Shown: positions 7,377-53,799 of the stretch, piece after piece
How positions within the stretch are numbered: the first letter of the stretch is position 1
How the letters are laid out: each line of letters starts with the position of its first letter
Origin: Rhizobium sp. Q54
GTDB lineage: Bacteria > Pseudomonadota > Alphaproteobacteria > UBA828
DNA: 53,799 nt
Assembly (NCBI GenBank): GCA_945892755.1
Contig: CAMDDO010000009.1
Location: forward strand, 1 to 53,799
Direction: 5' to 3'
Notes under the pieces: generated by a model
The model's database searches: none
What the model was told of the DNA's origin: nothing
What the model saw: the letters and a program-made list of their open reading frames with translations, nothing else
Program-made: the position numbers and the translations under genes

Positions 7377-8045
7377 TCATGACCGGGCGCGCCCAATGCC
7401 GAGCGCGCGCAGAGCGACGCACGCGGCGCCATAGCCATTGTCGATATTGACCACCGCGATGCCCGGCGCGCAGCTCGCGAGCGCCGCCCGAAGCGCGGTC
7501 TTGCCGCCGGCGGCCACGCCATAGCCGGTCGAGGTCGGCACCGCGACGACCAGCCCTGGCACCAGGCCGCCGACCACGCTCGGCAGCGCCGCGTCCATGC
7601 CGGCCGCGACGATCACCACCGGCAGCGCCCGAATTTCCTCGACCCGTTCCATCAGCCGCCAGAGGCCGGCGACGCCGACATCGCCGATCTCGTGCGTCTC
7701 GACGCCGTAATAGCGGAGCGTGCGCGCCGCTTCGCCTGCGACCGGCGCGTCCGACGTGCCGGCACTCAGCACGGCGACCGCCGCGCCGTGATTGGCCGGC
7801 TTGGTCCAAGCGAAATAGGCCGTGCGCGACACCGCCTCGTGGTCGAGCCGCGTCCGATGGTGCGTCGCGATTGTGGCGAGCCGCTCGGCGGGCAGGCGCG
7901 TGAGCAGCATCGAGACGCCGGCGCCGGCTGCGTGGTCGAGCACGGTATCGATTTGCGCCGTGCTTTTGCCCTCGCACAAGACCGCTTCTTCGAGACCGAT
8001 GCGGGCGTGGCGTTTGAGGTCGAGCTTGACGTGCGGATCGGTCAT
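7377..8045 (-). CDS. larB: LarB, pyridinium-3,5-biscarboxylic acid mononucleotide synthase
   Basis: 222 residues. LarB carboxylates and hydrolyses nicotinic acid adenine dinucleotide to make the first intermediate of the nickel-pincer nucleotide (NPN) cofactor. The PurE-like core is visible: LSAGTSDAPVAGEAARTL at about 93-110, AAGMDAALPSVVGGL, and PTSTGYG. Near the C-terminus SCAPGIAVVNIDNGYGA places Cys at 192, which matches the reactive Cys described for LarB. Its ATG overlaps the larE stop by 4 bases (ATGA), so the two are translationally coupled. It is last in the order larC-larE-larB. Confidence 0.93.
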   Translation of the reverse strand: MTDPHVKLDLKRHARIGLEEAVLCEGKSTAQIDTVLDHAAGAGVSMLLTRLPAERLATIATHHRTRLDHEAVSRTAYFAWTKPANHGAAVAVLSAGTSDAPVAGEAARTLRYYGVETHEIGDVGVAGLWRLMERVEEIRALPVVIVAAGMDAALPSVVGGLVPGLVVAVPTSTGYGVAAGGKTALRAALASCAPGIAVVNIDNGYGAACVALRALGIGRARS

Positions 8046-8872
8046 GGCGCGGCGGCGGCCCGCCCGTCGAGAAAGGCGCTGCCACGCCGATAGGCGCGAA
8101 ACTCGATGGGGCGCGACGCGGCGCGCGCGACCAGGCGAAGCGCGATCGCGTCATGGAGGCGGTTTCGTTCGTTCGCGCCGAGGCGCGCCAAGGCCTGCGT
8201 ATCGAGTTCGATCGCGAGCGCCCCGGCGCGGACACGGCAACGCACGGTCGTCGCGCCGAGGGCCGTCGTCACCAGGCGCTCGACCTCGTGCACCAGCGCG
8301 AGAAGCTCGGGCTCGATCCTGAGCCCGGTCTCGATGCGGCTTGAGAGGCAAGGCGAGGCCGGCAGTTCGGCAATCTCGCCGAGACCAAGATCGCGCGCGA
8401 TCCGGCGCACCTCGTCCTTGATCACACCGGCTTCGACGAAGGGGTGACGCACGCCGTGCGTCTTCGCCGCTTCTAGGCCCGGCCGCACGTCGTCGAGATC
8501 ATCGAGATTGGTGCCCGAGACAATCGTTTCCCGCGTTCGCGCGGCGATCGCGCCGTAGAGATTGGTCTTGCAGAAGAAGCAGCGATTGGCCGGGTTGGCA
8601 CGGTAGGCCGGATCGGCGAACTCGCCCGCGTCGATCACGTCGAGCCGCCAGGCCTGCCGCGCCGCCGCTTCGCGCACGCGCATGGTCGCGTCGGGCGGTA
8701 CGGCTGGCGACACGGCATGCAACATCGAGGCCCGCTCGCCGAGCGTTCGCTTGGCCAGGGTGGCGAGGGTCAGGCTATCGACCCCGCCGCTGACCGCGAC
8801 CGCGACCCGACCGAGGCCGCTCAGCAGCGCGGCGACACGCGCTTGCGCCGTTTCGCTCGCGCCTTCAATCAT
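8042..8872 (-). CDS. larE: LarE, sulfur transferase of NPN cofactor synthesis
   Basis: 276 residues from ATG 8872, overlapping the larC stop by 8 bases; an ATG at 8884 is also possible. The N-terminal PP-loop SGGVDS (28-33) marks the ATP pyrophosphatase fold that adenylates the substrate carboxylates. LarE then adds sulfur. Three Cys sit at conserved places: C98 and C101 in RCFFCKTNLY, and C175 in SPCLSSR. Single-Cys LarE proteins sacrifice their own sulfur, whereas three-Cys LarE proteins are reported to hold a [4Fe-4S] cluster; the pattern here fits the cluster type. It lies between larC and larB. Confidence 0.93.
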   Translation of the reverse strand: MIEGASETAQARVAALLSGLGRVAVAVSGGVDSLTLATLAKRTLGERASMLHAVSPAVPPDATMRVREAAARQAWRLDVIDAGEFADPAYRANPANRCFFCKTNLYGAIAARTRETIVSGTNLDDLDDVRPGLEAAKTHGVRHPFVEAGVIKDEVRRIARDLGLGEIAELPASPCLSSRIETGLRIEPELLALVHEVERLVTTALGATTVRCRVRAGALAIELDTQALARLGANERNRLHDAIALRLVARAASRPIEFRAYRRGSAFLDGRAAAAP

Positions 8873-44126: not shown

Positions 44127-44203
44127 CGGGGTGTGGCGCAGTCTGGTAGCGCATCTGCTTTGGGAGCAGAGGGTCGCTGGTTCGAATCCAGTCACCCCGA
44201 CCA
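44127..44203 (+). tRNA. tRNA-Pro (TGG)
   Basis: 77 bases with encoded CCA. The acceptor arms CGGGGTG and CACCCCG pair; the D arm contains GGCGCAGTCTGGTAGCGC; the anticodon stem TCTGC/GCAGA holds the loop TTTGGGA with anticodon TGG; the T arm is CTGGTTCGAATCCAG. All arms pair well. Confidence 0.96.
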
Positions 44204-44989: not shown

Positions 44990-45164
44990 GCGGAAATCCC
45001 CCATCAAACGGCCGGCGACTCGACAATATCGCAAAGGTTGATCGATGGCCAGCCGAGGTAGGAGCGGGCCGTTTGGCGCCGGACCGGCGCGCGCTTGCCG
45101 GCTTCCGCCGCCAATGTGATAGTTGCGCCCAGGCGGCCGCGCGCCGCTTGTTCGCCGTTGACGG

Positions 45165-45241
<77 letters not shown>

Positions 45242-45298
45242 AATTATGACTTACGGCGGGGTCAGCCGCTGGCGAACCGAACGCCGCGAAGGTCGCGA

Positions 45299-46711
45299 TC
45301 AGAGCGTCAGCTTGTTGTTGGCGTCGAGCGCGGCCACCTTGTAGCACTCGGCGAGCGTCGGGTAGTTGAAAACCGTATCCATGAAATATTCGAGCCCGCC
45401 GCCGAGGCCGAGCACGGCCTGACCGATGTGAATGAGTTCGGTCGCGCCCGTGCCGATGACGTGGACGCCAAGCAGCTTGCGCGTCTCGGCGTGAAAAATC
45501 AGCTTCATCATGCCGGAATCATCGCCGAGAATTTGACCGCGGGCGATTTCGCGGTAGCGCGCGACGCCGGTTTCATAGGGAATCCCCGCCTTGGTCAGCG
45601 CATGCTCGGCTTGGCCGACCATCGAGATTTCCGGAATCGAATAGATGCCGATCGGAAAATGGCTCGACATCGATCCGGCGGGCGCATCGAAGGCGTGGCA
45701 GGCGGCGAGGCGCCCTTGTTCGGACGAGGTCGCGGCCAGGCTCGGATAGCCGATAATGTCGCCGGCGGCGAAGATGTGCGGCACCGCCGAGCGAAATGCC
45801 GAATCGACCTTGATTCGGCCGCGCTCATCGGCGTCGAGGCCGGCGAGTTCGAGGTTCAGTGTATCCGATGCGCCAACGCGGCCGGTGCAGGCGATCACCA
45901 GATCGCTCACCAGGCGTTTTCCGGATTCAAGGCGGACGAGCGCTTGGCGCGGTGGGCCGTCGCGGGTTTCGATTTCGGCAACTTTTTCGCCCAGACGAAA
46001 CGTCACATTGCGCTTGCGCAATTGGTAAATGAGGTCATCGACGATCTCGAAGTCGAGAAATTCGAGCGGGCGATCGCGGCCGTCGATCAGCGTCACCTTG
46101 GCACCGAGCGCTGCGAACATCGAGGCGTATTCGATCCCGATGACGCCGCAGCCGATCACCGTGATGCTGCGTGGCAGCTCGCGCAGGCGAGGGATTTCGT
46201 CGCTGGTGATGACGCATGACATATCGCCGGCGAGGCCCGTCTGGCGGTGGGCGCGCGTGCCAACCGCGATCAGCAACTTATCCGCTGTCACCTCGCGCGT
46301 GCCGTTCGACGATTGCACGATGATCGAATGCGGGCCGCTGAAGCTGGCTTTGCCGGGGATGACATCGACGCCGTTGCGGAACAATTGGTCGCGCTGAATG
46401 CGCGATTCGGTTTGCACGATCGCGCTCACGCGCGATAACAGCTTCTCCGCCGTGGCGCGCTCCTCGGGCGCTCGGTGGCCATTGCCAATATGGGGCGCGC
46501 CGAATGCTTCCCGCGACCGGCCGAAGGACAACACGGCCTCGCGAAAGGTCTTGGAGGGGATTGTGCCGGTATGTAGACAAACCCCGCCGACTTCCACCTC
46601 GCATTCAACGATGGCGACGCGCTTGCGCAGTTTCGCGGCCTGGACCGCCGCCCGTTGACCGGCCGGACCGCTGCCGATCGCGACAAGATCAAACTCGTGC
46701 GCTTGATTCAT
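45299..46711 (-). CDS. sthA: Soluble pyridine nucleotide transhydrogenase
   Basis: 470 residues from ATG 46711. FAD-binding GSGPAG at 13-18 and NAD-binding VIGCGVIGIEYASMFAALGA. The lipoamide dehydrogenase-like redox motif (GGxCxNxGCxPSK) is replaced by GGVCLHTGTIPSK, with C45 but no second Cys. This is the hallmark of SthA/UdhA, which exchanges hydride between NADPH and NAD+. The C-terminal dimer domain IGTGATELIHIGQ lacks the His-Glu pair of disulfide reductases. It would balance NADPH and NADH in the cytosol. Confidence 0.9.
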   Translation of the reverse strand: MNQAHEFDLVAIGSGPAGQRAAVQAAKLRKRVAIVECEVEVGGVCLHTGTIPSKTFREAVLSFGRSREAFGAPHIGNGHRAPEERATAEKLLSRVSAIVQTESRIQRDQLFRNGVDVIPGKASFSGPHSIIVQSSNGTREVTADKLLIAVGTRAHRQTGLAGDMSCVITSDEIPRLRELPRSITVIGCGVIGIEYASMFAALGAKVTLIDGRDRPLEFLDFEIVDDLIYQLRKRNVTFRLGEKVAEIETRDGPPRQALVRLESGKRLVSDLVIACTGRVGASDTLNLELAGLDADERGRIKVDSAFRSAVPHIFAAGDIIGYPSLAATSSEQGRLAACHAFDAPAGSMSSHFPIGIYSIPEISMVGQAEHALTKAGIPYETGVARYREIARGQILGDDSGMMKLIFHAETRKLLGVHVIGTGATELIHIGQAVLGLGGGLEYFMDTVFNYPTLAECYKVAALDANNKLTL

Positions 46712-47317
46712 GGCTCTACCGATGTGTTCCGGGTTTCGAACAGCCGATCTTAGGTGCCGATCCTTAACAACAAGGTGACGCGCGCCCGTGAACGTGGTTA
46801 CCAAAACGTTGCACGGGTCGGCCTTGAGGCGGCCATCCAGTCTTCTGGATAAAACCACGGTGCCGCCGCCGCCGGATTGCCGGGTCCACGCCCACGGCTG
46901 TCCGGTTTGGTTCGCGTAGTCCGCGATCCATCTCCAATTCGTCGTCCCACGGCTTGGCCGGGGGACCCAGAATTACTGGAAACCCGCTTGTGCCGCCGCC
47001 CCTGGATACTCCGCCTGCGCGGAGTATGACGAAGGAAAATATCCAACTTGGCGCACTTCAGATCCGTGTCCCGCTCTCCTCCAATCGAACGGAGGGACGC
47101 GGCGGTTGCGGGCCTCACGGAAGATGCCGACACCTCAACCGGAGAGCCGTGGGTCAAGCCGGCAATGACGAGAAAGAGAAGGGGGGGACCGCGCCCCGCC
47201 GCCTAGGCGGCGAAAGCCAAGCGCGTCGTGCGCCCCTGCGCGCGCCCGAGCACGCGACGCGCGCGCCCGGCGCCTGAGGGCGTCACGATGATCGGTCACG
47301 ATCATCGCGACTTAGTA
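46712..47317. other. 606-bp gap without a gene; several palindromic repeat pieces
   Basis: No reading frame here has a believable start and protein. The sequence holds parts of common proteobacterial intergenic elements: the hairpin ATACTCCGC-CTGC-GCGGAGTAT at 47006-47027 followed by TGACGA, a GCCGTGGGTCAAGCCGGCAA piece followed by TGACGA near 47145-47170, and element B at its right end. The first about 90 bases should contain the sthA promoter, but no strong boxes were found. Confidence 0.6.
47259..47315. repeat. Dispersed element B, copy 2
   Basis: GCGCGCGCCCGGCGCCTGAG, then GGCGTCACGATGATCGGTCA, CGATCATCGCGACTTAG. It matches copy 1 at 44053-44107 with few gaps. It ends 2 bases before the stop of the minus-strand oxidoreductase gene, so it may serve as its 3' end. 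Confidence 0.55.
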
Positions 47318-48328
47318 TTAGAATCCTTCGAGCACCACCTTGCCCTTGGCCTTGCCGCTTTCGATGAAGGCGTGGGCGCGCTTGAGGTTGGCCGCGTTGA
47401 TCGCGCCATAACGCTCGCCGAGCGTGGTGCGCAGGCGCCCGGCATCGACCAGCGCCGCGACCTCGTCCAAGAGCGCCCCTTGCTGGGCGATGTCCGCCGT
47501 CTCGAACATCGAGCGCGTGAACATGAACTCCCAATGCAAGGACGCGCTCTTGCGCTTCAGGAGATTGACATCGATCGCCTTCGGGTCGTCGATCACGGCG
47601 ATGCGCCCTTGCGGCTTCAACGCTTCGGCGAGCGCCGGGAAGTGCGTCTCAGTCTCGGTCAAGGCGGCGATGCAATCGACCTGCGGCGTGCCCAGCGCCT
47701 TCAATTGATCGCCGAGCGGCTTCGCATGGTCGATCACCTGATGCGCGCCGAGCGAGCGGCACCATGCGCTGGTCTCGGGCCGCGAGGCGGTCGCGATGAT
47801 GTCGAGCGCGGTCAATTGACGCGCGAGCTGAATCAGGATCGAGCCGACGCCGCCGGCGCCACCGATGATGAGCAGGCTCTGGCCCTTGCCGCCATCGCGC
47901 GCCATGCCGAGCCGGTCGAACAGCAATTCCCACGCCGTGATCGTGGTGAGCGGCAGGGCCGCCGCCTCGGCATTGGAGAGGCTCTTCGGCTTGTGCCCGA
48001 CGATACGCTCATCGACGGTTTGGTATTCGGCGTTCGAGCCCGGCCGCACCAGCGCGCCGGCGTAATAGACCTGATCGCCGGGCTTGAAGCGGCGCGCGCT
48101 TGCGCCGACCGCCTCGACCGTGCCGCACGCATCCCAGCCCAGAATGCGAGTTTCGCCGGCCGGCACCGGGAATTTGAGACGCACCTTCCAATCGACCGGG
48201 TTGACCGCGACCGCCGCGATCTTGACCAGCAGGTCGCGCGCGTCCGGCGCGGGCTTGGGCGCGTCGAAATCGACCAGCGCATTGGGATCGGTGATCGGCA
48301 GATTGGCGCGATGGCCGACGGCTTTCAT
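47318..48328 (-). CDS. Zinc-type MDR / NADPH:quinone oxidoreductase-like protein
   Basis: 336 residues, ATG 48328 overlapping the metC stop (ATGA). Medium-chain dehydrogenase/reductase: AVAVNPVDWKVR, GWDACGTVEAVG and the NADP loop GGAGGVGSILIQLARQL. The catalytic and structural zinc Cys residues of alcohol dehydrogenases are absent, which places it in the quinone-reductase/enoyl-reductase branch (ZADH-type annotation). It likely reduces quinones or enones with NADPH. Third and last in the operon with the E1-like gene and metC. Confidence 0.87.
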   Translation of the reverse strand: MKAVGHRANLPITDPNALVDFDAPKPAPDARDLLVKIAAVAVNPVDWKVRLKFPVPAGETRILGWDACGTVEAVGASARRFKPGDQVYYAGALVRPGSNAEYQTVDERIVGHKPKSLSNAEAAALPLTTITAWELLFDRLGMARDGGKGQSLLIIGGAGGVGSILIQLARQLTALDIIATASRPETSAWCRSLGAHQVIDHAKPLGDQLKALGTPQVDCIAALTETETHFPALAEALKPQGRIAVIDDPKAIDVNLLKRKSASLHWEFMFTRSMFETADIAQQGALLDEVAALVDAGRLRTTLGERYGAINAANLKRAHAFIESGKAKGKVVLEGF

Positions 48329-49533
48329 GACCTAGCTTTCCTCATTCGTTCGAAGCCTTCCTCGAGATCGGCGATCAGGTCGGCCGGGTCTTCGAGCCCG
48401 GCATGGAAGCGGAGCATCGGATATTTCGGGTCCCAGCGCGACGGGTCGGCGCGCAACAGATGCGGCTCAGTCGGCACCACCAGGCTCTCATAGCCGCCCC
48501 AGGAATAGCCCATGCCGAACAGCTTGAGGCCATCCAGCATGGCGGCGACCGCGTCGCTCGAGACCGGCTTCAGCACCACGCCGAACAGGCCGCTGGCGCC
48601 CTTGAAGTCGCGCTTCCAGATCGCGTGACCGGGGTCGTCGGGCAGCGCGGGGTAGAGCACGCGATCGACCTCGGGGCGCGCTTTGAGCCAGAGCGCGAGT
48701 TCGGTCGCGACCTCCTGATGGCGCCGCAAGCGCACGCCGAGCGTGCGCAGGCCGCGCAACGCGAGATAGATGTCGTCGGGCCCGGCCGAGAAGCCGAGCT
48801 CCTCGAAGGCGTGGCGGATCGCGGGGTAGGTTTCCTCGGTGCCGGTGACCAGGCCGAGCATGGCGTCCGAATGGCCGACGACGTATTTCGTGCCGGCCTG
48901 GATCGAGACGTCGACGCCGTGCGCGAACGGATCGAAGAACAGCGGCGAGGCCCAGGTGTTGTCCATCAGCACCGCCAAGCCCGCCGCCTTGGCGACCTTG
49001 GCAAGCGCCGGCACGTCCTGCACCTCGAAGGTGAGCGAGCCCGGCGATTCGAGGAACAGCACGCGCGTGTTCGGCTTGATCAAGCGCGCGAGCTCATTCC
49101 GCGCGATCAAGGGATCGTAGAACGTGGCTGTGATGCCGAAACGCGCCGAGGTCTTCTCGGCGAACTGGCGCGAGGGCGAATAGGCGGAATCGACCATCAA
49201 GACATGATCGCCGGCTTTCAGGAACGCGAGCAGCGCGCAGACCACGGCGGCTTTTCCCGAGCCGACGATGACCGAGCGGTAGCCGCCCTCGATCTCCGCC
49301 ACGGCCTCTTCCAGGGCGAACGTGGTCGGCGTGCCATAGCGGCCGTAAAAGACCTTGCCGGGCGCCCTGTTGCCCGGGTCCTTCAGCGCCTTCACGGTCG
49401 GGAACAGCACGGTCGAGGCGTGATAGACCGGCGGATTGACGATGCCGTGATGCGCGAACGGGTCGCGCCCGAGCACCGAAAGCTTGGTGTCGGGGCGGTA
49501 GGAGTCCTTTTTCGGATCGTCGCGCTCGGTCAT
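48325..49533 (-). CDS. metC: Cystathionine beta-lyase-like PLP enzyme
   Basis: 402 residues, ATG 49533 overlapping the stop of the upstream gene. Cys/Met metabolism fold-I PLP enzyme: FYGRYGTPTTFALEEAVAEI, IVGSGKAAVVCAL, LFLESPGSLTFEVQDV and the PLP Lys K216 in QAGTKYVVGHSD. SPGS and SAGPDDIYLALRGLRT are typical of MetC from proteobacteria. It cleaves cystathionine to homocysteine, pyruvate and ammonia, and may degrade cysteine. ATGA overlaps on both sides tie it to its neighbours. Confidence 0.88.
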   Translation of the reverse strand: MTERDDPKKDSYRPDTKLSVLGRDPFAHHGIVNPPVYHASTVLFPTVKALKDPGNRAPGKVFYGRYGTPTTFALEEAVAEIEGGYRSVIVGSGKAAVVCALLAFLKAGDHVLMVDSAYSPSRQFAEKTSARFGITATFYDPLIARNELARLIKPNTRVLFLESPGSLTFEVQDVPALAKVAKAAGLAVLMDNTWASPLFFDPFAHGVDVSIQAGTKYVVGHSDAMLGLVTGTEETYPAIRHAFEELGFSAGPDDIYLALRGLRTLGVRLRRHQEVATELALWLKARPEVDRVLYPALPDDPGHAIWKRDFKGASGLFGVVLKPVSSDAVAAMLDGLKLFGMGYSWGGYESLVVPTEPHLLRADPSRWDPKYPMLRFHAGLEDPADLIADLEEGFERMRKARS

Positions 49534-51887
49534 CGACGGCGTGCGGCGTCCACGCAGGCGAGCGCCGCCATGTCGAGCATCGCGTCGGAATCGAGCCCGT
49601 GTTTGTGATAGAGGTCGGGGATGTCGCCCGATTCACCGAAGCGCGTCGCGCCGAGCGGGTAGGGCCTGAGGCCCGCGACCGAACCGAGCCAGGAGAGCGT
49701 GCTCGGATGACCATCGATCGCGGTGATCAACCCCGCGCCGTTGCCAAGCCGGCTCAGCAAATGCTCGGCATGAGAACGCGCGCTGGGATTACCGGTCGCG
49801 CGGGCGTGCAGCGCATCGAGCCAGCCATGATAAAGCCGGTCGGCGGAGGTGATCGCGAGCACGCCGAGGCCCGGGATTTCCTCGGCCAGCGCGGCGTGGG
49901 CCTCGAGCACCTCGGGCGCCAACGCCCCTGAATAGGCGATGGCCAAGCTCGCCTCCGGTCCCGGCTCGATCTGCCAATAGCCGCCGGCGATCACGTCCTC
50001 CGCCGATAGAGTTCGTTCGGGCTGCTCGATCGTGCGCGTCGAGAGCCGCATATAGAGCGAGCCGCCGTCCTCGGCCTGCATGTGGCCGAAGCCCCACTGC
50101 ATGATCGCGGCGAGCTCATCGGCATAAGCGGGCTCAAAGAAGGTCACGCCGGGCTGGCCGAGGCCGATCAGCGGCTCGACCACCGATTGATGCGCGCCGC
50201 CCTCGGGCGCCAGCGTCAGGCCCGAGGGCGTGCCCGCCAGCATGAAGCGCGCGTCCTGATAGGCGGCGTAGTTGAGCGCGTCCAGCCCGCGCGCGATGAA
50301 CGGGTCATAGACCGTGCCGACCGGCAGCAGGCGCGCGCCGAACAGCGAGCCCGAAAGCCCGAGCGCCGCCAGCATGAGGAACAGGTTGTTCTCCGCGATG
50401 CCGAGCTCGATGTGCTGGCCGTGCCGGCTCATCGCCCATTTCTGCATCGAGACGACCTTCTCGGAATGGAACACGTCCTCGCGGTCGGCGCGGTTGTAGA
50501 TGCCGCGCTGATTGACCCAGCCGCCGAGATTGGTCGAGACGGTCACGTCGGGCGAGGTGGTGACGATGCGCTCGGCCAAGGGCCCGCCCTCGCGCCCGAG
50601 CTCGTTCAGAATTCGCCCGAAGGCCTCTTGCGTCGAGGCGCGCTTGGCGGCGCGAAAAGGCAGGCTCGCCGGCAGCGCGATCGGCTCGCTCGACAGCCGC
50701 CTCGTGCCCTCGCGCGTGAACGGCACGGCGGCGAGAAATCCCTTGAGCGCCGCCTCGTCCATGTCGAGCCCGGCGAAGCGCTCCCACTCCTGGCCCTCCG
50801 CGATGCCCATTTGATGCTTGAACGCGACCATCTGGTCCTGGTTCATCAGCCCGGCGTGATTGTCCTTGTGGCCGGCGAAGGGCAGGCCATAGCCCTTGAT
50901 GGTGTAGACGATGAAGCAATGCGGCTTGTCGTCCTCGACCGCGTGGAAGGCTTCGAGCACGCTCTCCATGTCGTGGCCGGCGAGATTGGTCATCAGCGCC
51001 TGGAGCGCGTCGTCGTCCATCTCGGCGAGCAATGCCGGGACGCCGTTGATGTGGCCGAGATCGGCGCCGAGCCGCTCGCGCCAGGCCTTGCCGCCCTTGA
51101 AGGTGAGCGCCGAATAGAGCTCGTTCGAGCAATCGTCGATCCACTGGCGCAGCGCCTCGCCGCCGGGCCGGCGGAACGCGGCTTGTTGCAGCCGGCCGTG
51201 CTTCAGAATCACCACGCGCCAGCCGACCGTGTCGAAGAAATCCTTGATCTTCTGGAACAGCTTGTCGTTGACCACGCGATCGAGGCTCTGGCGGTTATAG
51301 TCGATCACCCACCAGAGATTGCGCACGTCGTGCTTCCAGCCTTCGAGCATCGCCTCGTAGACATTGCCCTCGTCGAGCTCGGCGTCGCCGATCAGCGCGA
51401 CCATGCGGCCCAAGGGCCGTTCCGCCGGAATCAGCTTGTGGAAATGCAGATAGTCCTGCACCAGCGAGGCGAAGAGGGTGACGCCCACGCCCAGACCCAC
51501 CGACCCGGTCGAGAAATCGACGTCGTCGGCGTCCTTGGTGCGCGACGGGTAGGACTGCGCGCCGCCGAGCGCGCGGAACCGCTCCAGCTTCTCGCGCGTC
51601 TGATTGCCGAGCAGATATTGGATGGCGTGGAACACCGGGCTGGCATGCGGCTTGACCGCGACGCGGTCCTCGGGCTTCAGCACGTCCAAATAGAGCGCGG
51701 TCATCACGGTCGCGATCGAGGCGCAGCTCGATTGGTGGCCGCCGACCTTCAGCCCGTCGCGCGGGGCGCGCACATGGTTCGCGTTGTGGATGGTCCAGGC
51801 GGCGAGCCAGAGCACCTTCTTCTCGAGCGCGCGCAGGCACGCCAGCCGCTCCGGCGTCGCGCCATGCCGCAATCCTGCCTGAACCAT
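49530..51887 (-). CDS. Transketolase / homodimeric pyruvate-dehydrogenase-E1-like protein
   Basis: 785 residues, ATG 51887. Thiamine diphosphate enzyme with N-terminal GGHQSSCASIATVMTALYLD, the TPP/Mg motif GDAELDEG (167-174) with NRQ at 198-200, then a transketolase central domain (SPDVTVSTNLGGW, IELGIAENNLFLMLAALGLS) and a C-terminal domain. It is shorter than AceE (about 890) and longer than transketolase (about 660), as in the alphaproteobacterial group often annotated simply as transketolase. Its substrate is not settled. It leads the operon with metC and the MDR gene. Confidence 0.85.
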   Translation of the reverse strand: MVQAGLRHGATPERLACLRALEKKVLWLAAWTIHNANHVRAPRDGLKVGGHQSSCASIATVMTALYLDVLKPEDRVAVKPHASPVFHAIQYLLGNQTREKLERFRALGGAQSYPSRTKDADDVDFSTGSVGLGVGVTLFASLVQDYLHFHKLIPAERPLGRMVALIGDAELDEGNVYEAMLEGWKHDVRNLWWVIDYNRQSLDRVVNDKLFQKIKDFFDTVGWRVVILKHGRLQQAAFRRPGGEALRQWIDDCSNELYSALTFKGGKAWRERLGADLGHINGVPALLAEMDDDALQALMTNLAGHDMESVLEAFHAVEDDKPHCFIVYTIKGYGLPFAGHKDNHAGLMNQDQMVAFKHQMGIAEGQEWERFAGLDMDEAALKGFLAAVPFTREGTRRLSSEPIALPASLPFRAAKRASTQEAFGRILNELGREGGPLAERIVTTSPDVTVSTNLGGWVNQRGIYNRADREDVFHSEKVVSMQKWAMSRHGQHIELGIAENNLFLMLAALGLSGSLFGARLLPVGTVYDPFIARGLDALNYAAYQDARFMLAGTPSGLTLAPEGGAHQSVVEPLIGLGQPGVTFFEPAYADELAAIMQWGFGHMQAEDGGSLYMRLSTRTIEQPERTLSAEDVIAGGYWQIEPGPEASLAIAYSGALAPEVLEAHAALAEEIPGLGVLAITSADRLYHGWLDALHARATGNPSARSHAEHLLSRLGNGAGLITAIDGHPSTLSWLGSVAGLRPYPLGATRFGESGDIPDLYHKHGLDSDAMLDMAALACVDAARRR

Positions 51888-51938
51888 GACCTTTCTCCTG
51901 AACGACCCGCGCTACCGGCCGGAATCTATCACGCGTTT

Positions 51939-52118
51939 CCCCTCACCCGCGCCCCTCGGGCATTCGCCCAAGGGGCGCACCCTCTCCCACACGGGGAGAG
52001 GGTATCTCCGCGCGCCCCCCTTTAATCCCTCGCCCCTCCGTGGGAGAGGAAGGGGCCCATCGCGTCAGCGATGGGAAGGTGAGGGGGCGCAAGACCGCCC
52101 GATGGTTGGGTGAGGGGT
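51939..52118. repeat. Dispersed intergenic palindromic element, long copy 3
   Basis: The largest copy: CCCCTCACCC at the left and GGGTGAGGGG at the right, enclosing nested hairpins GCCCCTCGGGC, CCCAAGGGGC, CCCTCTCCCACACGGGGAGA followed by GGG, and CCCATCGCGTCAGCGATGGG. It lies before the E1-like gene's start and after the CopD-like gene's stop. See copies at 11033-11146 and 25836-25890. Confidence 0.6.
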
Positions 52119-52151
52119 ATCCGAAGCGTCAGACTCCAACCGTTATCAACC

Positions 52152-52607
52152 CTACCAATACCGGCCCGACGCGCCGATCGCCACAACGATCAGGCCGAGA
52201 TAAAGATTGATGTGGATGATCCGGCGGATGGCATCGAGCGCCGCGCCGGCCGCCTTGTGGTCCTTGGCGTCGAGCGCGTTCAGGAACCGCCGATAGGGCA
52301 GGCCAAGGAGGCCGAGGAAGAGAGCCACCATCACCCAGCCGCCGCCCTGCATGAGGTCGACATGGAGGCCGGCGCCCGCGAATCCGCCGAAGCCCTCGAA
52401 CATCATCGCGTAGCCGGTGCCGAGCAGCACGACGATCGCCGCGCCGACGATCCAGAAGAAGCGCCGGAACGCGCGGCGCCAAAAACCTTGACGCTGGGGC
52501 GGCTCGAACGGCCCGACCGCCGGGCGCGCCACGTGATAGGCGAACACCATCCCGCCGACCCAGAGGACGGCGGCGAGGACATGGAGCGCGACGAGAACGG
52601 CCATCAT
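52152..52607 (-). CDS. CopD-like four-helix membrane protein
   Basis: 151 residues, ATG 52607 followed by a second ATG. Four hydrophobic segments: LVALHVLAAVLWVGGMVFAY, FFWIVGAAIVVLLGTGYAMM, WVMVALFLGLLGL and LYLGLIVVAIGA. His in the first helix (ALHVLAAVLWVGG) and HINLYLG in the last are typical of the CopD/DUF2269-like group, which includes copper-export and haem-handling proteins. Exact role unknown. It stands alone between repeat copy 3 and the AT-rich island. Confidence 0.75.
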   Translation of the reverse strand: MMAVLVALHVLAAVLWVGGMVFAYHVARPAVGPFEPPQRQGFWRRAFRRFFWIVGAAIVVLLGTGYAMMFEGFGGFAGAGLHVDLMQGGGWVMVALFLGLLGLPYRRFLNALDAKDHKAAGAALDAIRRIIHINLYLGLIVVAIGASGRYW

Positions 52608-52790
52608 GGGACGGGCCTATGGCCTCGCGGGCGGCTCAACTGGCCGCTGACCGGAGGATGCGACGCCTGAGAATAGGGCGGGGAGACAACGCCGGCAAGA
52701 TTGGGGTACATTCGACGCCCGCCAGCATCAACGGAGCGTCAGCGCCATATATTGAAAATTCAACCGGTTACGTAAGGTGACAATAAATTA

Positions 52791-53363
52791 ATGGACGCTT
52801 ACGAATTTTCAGTTTCTATTTTGGGTATACTAGTGTGGCCGCTGGTTATACTTACATCTGTGTTTTTGTTTAGAAAACCTATTTCAGATATTGGAAAAAG
52901 ACTAACGAAATTAACATACCGTGATCTTCGGGTTGATTTTGGTGAAACCCTGACGCGAGTAGAGCATGCCGTTTCCCAGGAAACAGCGGAAAAAGTCGGC
53001 TCCCCAGCAGTTGTTGTGGCCCCAGCTATCAGTGCGCGCGACCGCTTTGAACGCCTAGCAGAGATATCTCCAACTGCCGCCGTCGTAGAGACATGGATCG
53101 ACGTCGAAAACATGCTGAACACAATGGCTCTCCATCACGGCTTGATTGACGAAAGGGTAAAATCATCATCGAAGTTAATAAAACTCATGGGTTCTGCGAA
53201 AGTAATTGATCATAGGACAGCGGCGATTCTCGATGACCTTCGCTCGTTGAGGAATGCTGCTGCTCATGGCGATGCAGGTCGAGATATCAGCACCAACGAC
53301 GCGCTCAGATTTCGAGCGTTGTCCGACAACATGATCAGTATTCTGGCCTCCAGTGCGGATTAA
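52791..53363 (+). CDS. Membrane-anchored HEPN-like protein (DUF4145-type) in an AT-rich insert
   Basis: 190 residues, ATG 52791, with AAGGTG about 12 bases upstream. One membrane helix at residues 6-27 (FSVSILGILVWPLVILTSVF), then a charged linker and an all-helical domain about 85-190. The last domain ends LRSLRNAAAHG with R154 and H159, which is the R-x4-H motif of HEPN ribonuclease and dimer domains; the whole resembles DUF4145-type proteins. Composition is strikingly unlike the rest: a 60-base line at the start of the gene is only about 38% GC, and codons such as TTA, ATA and AGA are used. This points to horizontal gain. No partner gene is seen. Confidence 0.65.
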   Translation: MDAYEFSVSILGILVWPLVILTSVFLFRKPISDIGKRLTKLTYRDLRVDFGETLTRVEHAVSQETAEKVGSPAVVVAPAISARDRFERLAEISPTAAVVETWIDVENMLNTMALHHGLIDERVKSSSKLIKLMGSAKVIDHRTAAILDDLRSLRNAAAHGDAGRDISTNDALRFRALSDNMISILASSAD

Positions 53364-53799
53364 GTTGTTCAAAGACCGGAGCGTTGCACCCCTTCAAGCC
53401 GGGTACTCTTGCAAGTATATCTTCTGCGCCCATCCACCAATATGACCGAAGTTTGCCGTGAAATGTGCGCCCGGTAGCTCGAGGGCCATGCCGCAGCGTT
53501 TCAAGACCAATCTCTAAATTGCTTGGGGTTAGAGTTGTCTGGCTCGGTCATGAAGGCGAGCAATTTCGTTTCGCCTGGAACGATAGGTTGGACAAAGCAG
53601 TGACTAACTCGGATGAGCCCAAGCAGCAGATTACTACTGTCATTTTCTTAGCGACCGCCGGCCGGATCACACCGTGAAAGGAATTCTTCAAGTTGACTGC
53701 ATAGTACAATGTGCCATTCAGCTTGCGCCAGCTTGCGCCAACGGATGATCAAACTCCAGCCGTTTAGAGGTTTGAGTCATGGCCTTCAATGCGGGGAAA
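53364..53799. other. 436-bp AT-rich tail without a convincing gene
   Basis: This continues the low-GC segment. Short frames exist on both strands but none has a start, RBS and recognisable protein. A minus-strand open stretch ending near 53339 reads LETLRHGPRATGRTFHGKLR and onward for about 65 residues without a start codon, and may be debris of a lost gene. A 10-bp tandem duplication GCTTGCGCCA lies at 53721-53740. Confidence 0.4.

Follow-up and report, generated by a model that had tools for sequence, protein, structure and literature searches.

What kind of gene occupies the abruptly AT-rich end of an otherwise GC-rich contig of Rhizobium sp. Q54, and does it mark the edge of a defence island, as an earlier note on this DNA had supposed? 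The window, that is, the whole stretch of 53,799 nucleotides analysed here, is the complete contig C9, which ends 436 bases beyond the gene. We read the gene as coding for a WP-signature, membrane-anchored HEPN protein that would serve as a membrane-tethered RNase in phage defence, and as lying at the left edge of an island that was acquired horizontally and inserted between host genes; we give this reading a probability of about 0.58. The features concerned are the following.

49530-51887, minus strand: transketolase / PDH E1-like protein of the host flank, by Pfam; present in 12 of 13 relatives, with weak matches only in G010.
52152-52607, minus strand: CopD-family membrane protein of the host flank (Pfam CopD 35.8 bits, cut-off 32.1).
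52700-53799, strandless: AT-rich presumed island edge, 49% GC, with its left boundary near 52700 and its right at the contig end; by composition and lack of a DNA match elsewhere.
52774-52780, plus strand: Shine-Dalgarno-like AAGGTGA, 10 bases 5' of the ATG, by reading of the sequence.
52791-53363, plus strand: WP-type TM-HEPN gene of 190 amino acids; an ATG-start open reading frame with homologues that share its N- and C-terminal parts.
52809-52871, plus strand: single membrane helix, about residues 7-27, including W16-P17; by hydropathy, model and alignments.
53028-53360, plus strand: HEPN domain, about residues 80-190; by model helices, DUF4145 match and structural matches.
53250-53267, plus strand: R154-N155-A-A-A-H159, the HEPN R-x4-H motif; by sequence and alignments.

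The earlier note had the gene span 52740-53363; the end was correct, the start about 50 bases too early. Its observation that the composition falls to about 38% GC at the start of the gene was borne out, with 40.5% over the first 200 bases, 33% at 52801-52900 and 47.3% over the whole gene, against a contig background of 66.5% (positions 1-52650). None of the 5,265 overlapping 100-base windows left of the gene was at or below 38% GC, the lowest reaching 49%, and the lowest 600-base window stepped through positions 1-52000 had 59.8%. The gene is foreign-looking in composition. The DNA of the AT-rich edge found no match in the 21 other genomes searched, and the final 436 bases of the contig held no long open reading frame in six frames; elsewhere in the genome they had 17 matches, all of them short (E 0.19 or worse). 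What the earlier note had set against its own proposal, the same locus recurring in all relatives, was not found: none of the 20 other genomes of the same taxonomic family had the gene, and the matching locus lacked it in G001, G002, G004 and G005. Both absences speak against a housekeeping gene of odd composition, an explanation already disfavoured, with nothing found in its favour and, in our estimate, next to no likelihood.

The protein consists of an N-terminal helix, a linker for which the model has low confidence, and a C-terminal domain made up of helices. It has a single hydrophobic segment, with a best 19-residue hydropathy mean of 2.47 from residue 8, and the AlphaFold2 model places a helix at residues 3-26; the single membrane helix of the earlier note stands. 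The K/R-rich stretch directly after it suggests a C-inside topology. R154 and H159 were found exactly where they had been claimed. Pfam DUF4145 (PF13643) matched residues 126-172 with 20.3 bits (E 6e-4), short of the curated cut-off of 23.1 bits, as were the 21.4 bits obtained in a genome-wide search with this family; weaker HEPN families ranked after it. DUF4145 was matched at E 0.01 or better by 11 of 15 aligned relatives, this protein counted. NCBIfam and PADLOC models gave weak matches only (best PADLOC E 0.015), and no known PADLOC system was recognised in the protein.

The AlphaFold2 model, built on an alignment of 25 sequences, had a mean pLDDT of 86.3, rising above 90 for the greater part of residues 81-190, and a pTM of 0.67. 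Its helices at 80-92, 94-115, 126-135, 141-158 and 168-189 make a HEPN helical fold likely for residues of about 80-190. Foldseek returned no match at E <=0.001 (best E 0.1), but its first 23 rows were HEPN or HepT/MNT chains, with probabilities up to 0.99 at E 0.1; among these is 1wwp, which we take to be such a chain. In VIA-align the top row was 2hsb, a HEPN protein from an archaeon (Z 10.2, rmsd 2.5, 103 residues); after it came further HEPN chains and, at Z 8.0, the prophage protein HepS, in a comparison where unrelated helical bundles reach Z 6.8 and a helical-bundle Z below about 13 may be due to chance. The best structural matches spanned residues 82-190. A PDB profile search gave E values of 0.085-0.55, four of its five rows being named HepN or HepS and one being an ApeA-type defence protein; a viral structure library yielded no useful match (one row with probability 0.90 at E 0.67). 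Taken with the DUF4145 match, the relatives and the motif, the model supports the identity of a membrane-anchored HEPN protein.

This kind of protein is already known, and the present case adds informative context. A TM-HEPN group with a "WP signature" was described in 2013 by Anantharaman et al., with a HEPN domain overlapping DUF4145 and predicted to be a cytoplasmic RNase; the group was proposed to comprise membrane-associated RNases that sense cell-surface stimuli (PMC3710099). The protein studied here fits membership of this group, having in common with it, as far as the group is set out in that paper, the single N-terminal TM helix with a conserved WP and the C-terminal HEPN domain overlapping DUF4145 (PMC3710099). 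It differs in its setting: the passages of that paper on the group give no phage or island context, whereas here the gene lies at an apparent island edge and its relatives occupy phage and defence loci (PMC3710099).

The family is patchy in its spread. Protein search found full-length relatives in 4 of 95 relatives and in 11 of 398 genomes of the phylum, this genome counted in each; both tallies still contain L005 (G058) and L035 (G279), which we left out of the family, the former with a weak tblastn match lacking the N-terminal part, the latter with no tblastn match. Relatives were also present on 7 of 72,556 plasmid records and on 1 of 50,697 phage records, a P2-type prophage in which the gene adjoins the integrase. 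A pattern search added eight loci in genome contigs, one of which (L048) lies on the same contig as that of G074, and there were 26 loci on 25 viral contigs, L053 and L064 sharing one. Among 5,426 E. coli genomes, relatives were detected in 20 with the L056 gene as query and in 21 with the L037 gene, largely the same genomes among the matches listed.

W16, P17 and R154 were invariant in the alignments of 25 and of 15 sequences, the latter (A1) omitting the truncated L004 and the stop-broken L027. Among 45 non-redundant members, counted after removal of eight near-duplicates, W16 and P17 were kept in 44, R154 in 43, N155 in 39 and H159 in 40. The sole W/P gap was L079, a broken gene whose WP lies on its other piece; this WP-TM-HEPN gene (8005-8694, in G394) carries an in-frame stop. 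Three measurable close pairs showed purifying selection (dN/dS 0.042/0.284, 0.142/0.409 and 0.031/0.360); a fourth pair was too close to tell, and two had saturated dS. Two members are longer, with an extra C-terminal region: L085 (1083-1970, 296 amino acids) and L086 (9499-10449, 317 amino acids).

Conservation of the motif also bears on whether the domain cuts RNA at all. The protein might instead be a membrane superinfection-exclusion or sensing protein that uses its HEPN domain to bind RNA or a partner, without cutting, which we consider unlikely. Such a role would accommodate the loss of R or H in six members, by count of the alignment rows (L066, L069, L076, L077, L084 and the truncated L008), and the pairing of the WP helix in L076 with a C-terminus unlike the HEPN part. 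It would also suit the fusion of the same WP helix to receiver domains instead of HEPN, as described in PMC3710099. However, both R and H were kept in 39 of the 45 members, which would be needless for a pure scaffold. L076 (5251-5769), with its WP membrane helix and a C-terminus that is not HEPN-like, hints at a helix that could be exchanged as a module.

We turn to the place of the gene in this genome. In G004 and G005 the CopD-family and transketolase-like genes adjoin AdhC, by our reading a class III alcohol dehydrogenase, and the AdhC relative of the present genome lies on another contig, C22 (5000-6106, 82% identity). Both same-genus genomes, G001 and G002, had matches to the transketolase-like gene of C9 and to C22 on one contig, the C9-like and C22-like DNA being separated by about 0.2 kb in G001 and by 2.1 kb in G002. 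By our reading, the part of C22 matched there holds two genes, one small and DUF411-like, the other of receiver type; in G002 it also takes in AdhC. Since the orientation is the same in both genomes, the right end of C9 should face the left end of C22. That end of C22 is AT-rich too, with 40-42% GC to about position 750, and the only two DUF4145 matches of the whole genome stand at these facing ends. From the locus shared with the same-genus genomes and the AT-rich, DUF4145-bearing ends we infer that one island was inserted between C9 and C22, with HEPN-type genes at both edges and its middle in the assembly gap; the claim that an island edge continues past the window is thereby supported. The two contig ends had no exact overlap, so that their link is likewise deduced from synteny.

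The second DUF4145 gene (C22, locus L100, 1-618, minus strand, 51.2 bits) is cut by the contig end and is followed by a hydrolase gene and two LigB-like genes of host-like GC (one of the latter two profile-tested), and then by the DUF411-like gene. G074, too, has a DUF4145 gene immediately upstream of its WP-TM-HEPN gene. Two further observations concern the same region. An intergenic repeat of about 90 bases with inverted-repeat character, which looks REP-type, occurs both in the window (51972-52063) and on C22 (L100, 1788-1875), the copies being 74% alike. In G002 the interval that holds the island here, between the transketolase-like and DUF411-like genes, contains a gene for a caspase-like protein, by reading (L129, 6715-8523).

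An assembly artefact, a wrong join of the final 1.1 kb, would explain the abrupt jump in composition and would be in keeping with the position at a contig end in an assembly of 117 contigs. We nevertheless regard it as very improbable, since the facing end of C22 is AT-rich as well and bears the only other DUF4145 gene. Other marks of a mobile element were sought around the gene. The earlier note had suggested looking for an integrase: none was found on C9 or C22, the integrases of this genome lying on C3, C73 and C28, and C73 was not assigned to the island, as the 15,000 bases of it that were examined had a normal GC content. The only tRNA genes, at 44127 and 45165, are not near the gene; Rfam over 45000-53799 gave tRNA only. 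Positions 51900-53799 contained no convincing flanking repeat, the right boundary being beyond the contig. The visible island edges on C9 and C22 held no defence gene besides the DUF4145 types.

The link to defence divides. In this genome no defence system or integrase stands beside the gene, but its relatives do occupy mobile and defence contexts, and to that extent the link drawn by the earlier note is plausible. We scanned 141 open reading frames, by crude calls, within three of the gene at 24 non-viral loci; set apart from these were C9, the loci on viral contigs (26), L043 from a phage and L048 as a duplicate. These frames matched 137 PADLOC models at 1e-5 (25 of the 137 among the matches shown), models not being independent systems. 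In a control of 138 chromosomal frames from this genome and relatives, in other hosts than the 24 loci, seven models were matched (mad3, mad8, AriA, HEC-01A, caspase, HEC-02A and PDC-M01A), which provides a contrast but does not measure an enrichment. Twenty neighbours were picked by hand, hence non-randomly, and tested singly against PADLOC: 9 of them, at 7 of the 16 loci, had a match and 11 had none.

Individual loci illustrate this setting. At L080 (7979-10046) KwaA and KwaB of Kiwa stand directly upstream on the same strand, the gap from kwaB to the gene being 55 bases. A CBASS cyclase with a 4TM effector was found at L041, a cyclase at L036, a type I restriction enzyme at L040, AbiTii on the opposite strand at L037, a Ppl-like ATPase at L038 and a HEC-05-like protein at L083. 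The gene is flanked by head and portal genes on an E. coli phage-plasmid that we presume to be P1-like; two E. coli chromosomes carry it flanked by an integrase and tRNA-Thr, as part of an element that also contains trb/tra genes.

Partner genes, which the earlier note had recommended to look for, did not emerge as a general feature. Neighbour clustering of 52 loci (blastp E 1e-4, at which remote partners may be missed) yielded none that was widely shared; the largest cluster, a short downstream frame, comprised 5 of the 52 loci and another comprised 4, all related prophages. This bears on the possibility that the protein is the toxin of a toxin-antitoxin pair with its antitoxin past the contig end, as in HepT/MntA. 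HepT structures (PDB 5yep, 6m6u, 6m6w and 7bxo) were among the best structural matches, sharing the HEPN fold and an R-x4-H type motif at a Z of about 7, a value that helical bundles may reach by chance, and the right-hand neighbour is out of view. HepT is soluble with an adjacent MNT antitoxin; to the left of the TM-HEPN gene there is no MNT gene. The lack of a widely recurring partner in the 52 loci, together with the solitary position of the gene among structural genes in several phage loci, argues against such a pair. We judge this reading quite improbable.

Three further published cases resemble the present gene in part. The HEPN-TM anti-phage system of PICIs is borne by phage satellites and is reported to provide broad defence (PMC11087260, PMC12948488). 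By description, the only level at which the two were compared, it likewise combines HEPN and transmembrane parts on a mobile element, as far as these sources present it (PMC11087260, PMC12948488). Tha, the tail-activated HEPN anti-phage system, is a prophage-borne single HEPN protein, an RNase in abortive-type defence (PMC11087260). In the account given there it shares the R-x4-H motif, in Tha RNSIMH, but has another kind of N-terminal domain, a phage tail protein as trigger and a paired inhibitor gene (PMC11087260). In M. abscessus GD01 a DUF4145 gene, EXM25_05825, lies at the end of a candidate PICI and thus, like the present gene, at an island edge, according to the part of the report that deals with it (PMC10465359). 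Phage-resistant mutants carried transposon insertions upstream of EXM25_05825, for which the authors suggest overexpression (PMC10465359).

The gene is most likely a portable phage-defence module encoding a membrane-tethered putative RNase. The N-terminal helix would hold the protein in the inner membrane, its HEPN domain facing the cytoplasm. A signal caused by the phage at the membrane, or one borne by the phage, may act as trigger. Two HEPN domains would then pair to form a shared R/N/H active site, RNA would be cut near the membrane and growth would stop before phage release. Activation, RNA cleavage by a HEPN dimer and arrest are proposed by analogy with other HEPN systems such as Tha and from the conservation of the motif. 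More tentatively, the WP-TM-HEPN protein could be a self-contained anti-phage RNase that senses the membrane through the WP helix, carried on prophages, phage-plasmids and islands for inter-phage competition, and sometimes serving as a back-up killer beside membrane or signalling systems (Kiwa, CBASS with its 4TM effector).

The spread of the family over phage-like contigs, phage-plasmids and defence neighbourhoods points to phage defence for a group proposed in 2013. A direct test would be simple, since there is a single small gene and the sites to change are the two catalytic residues and the WP motif. If the protein does defend, it would add to the RNase effectors one that is anchored in the membrane and may need no partner.
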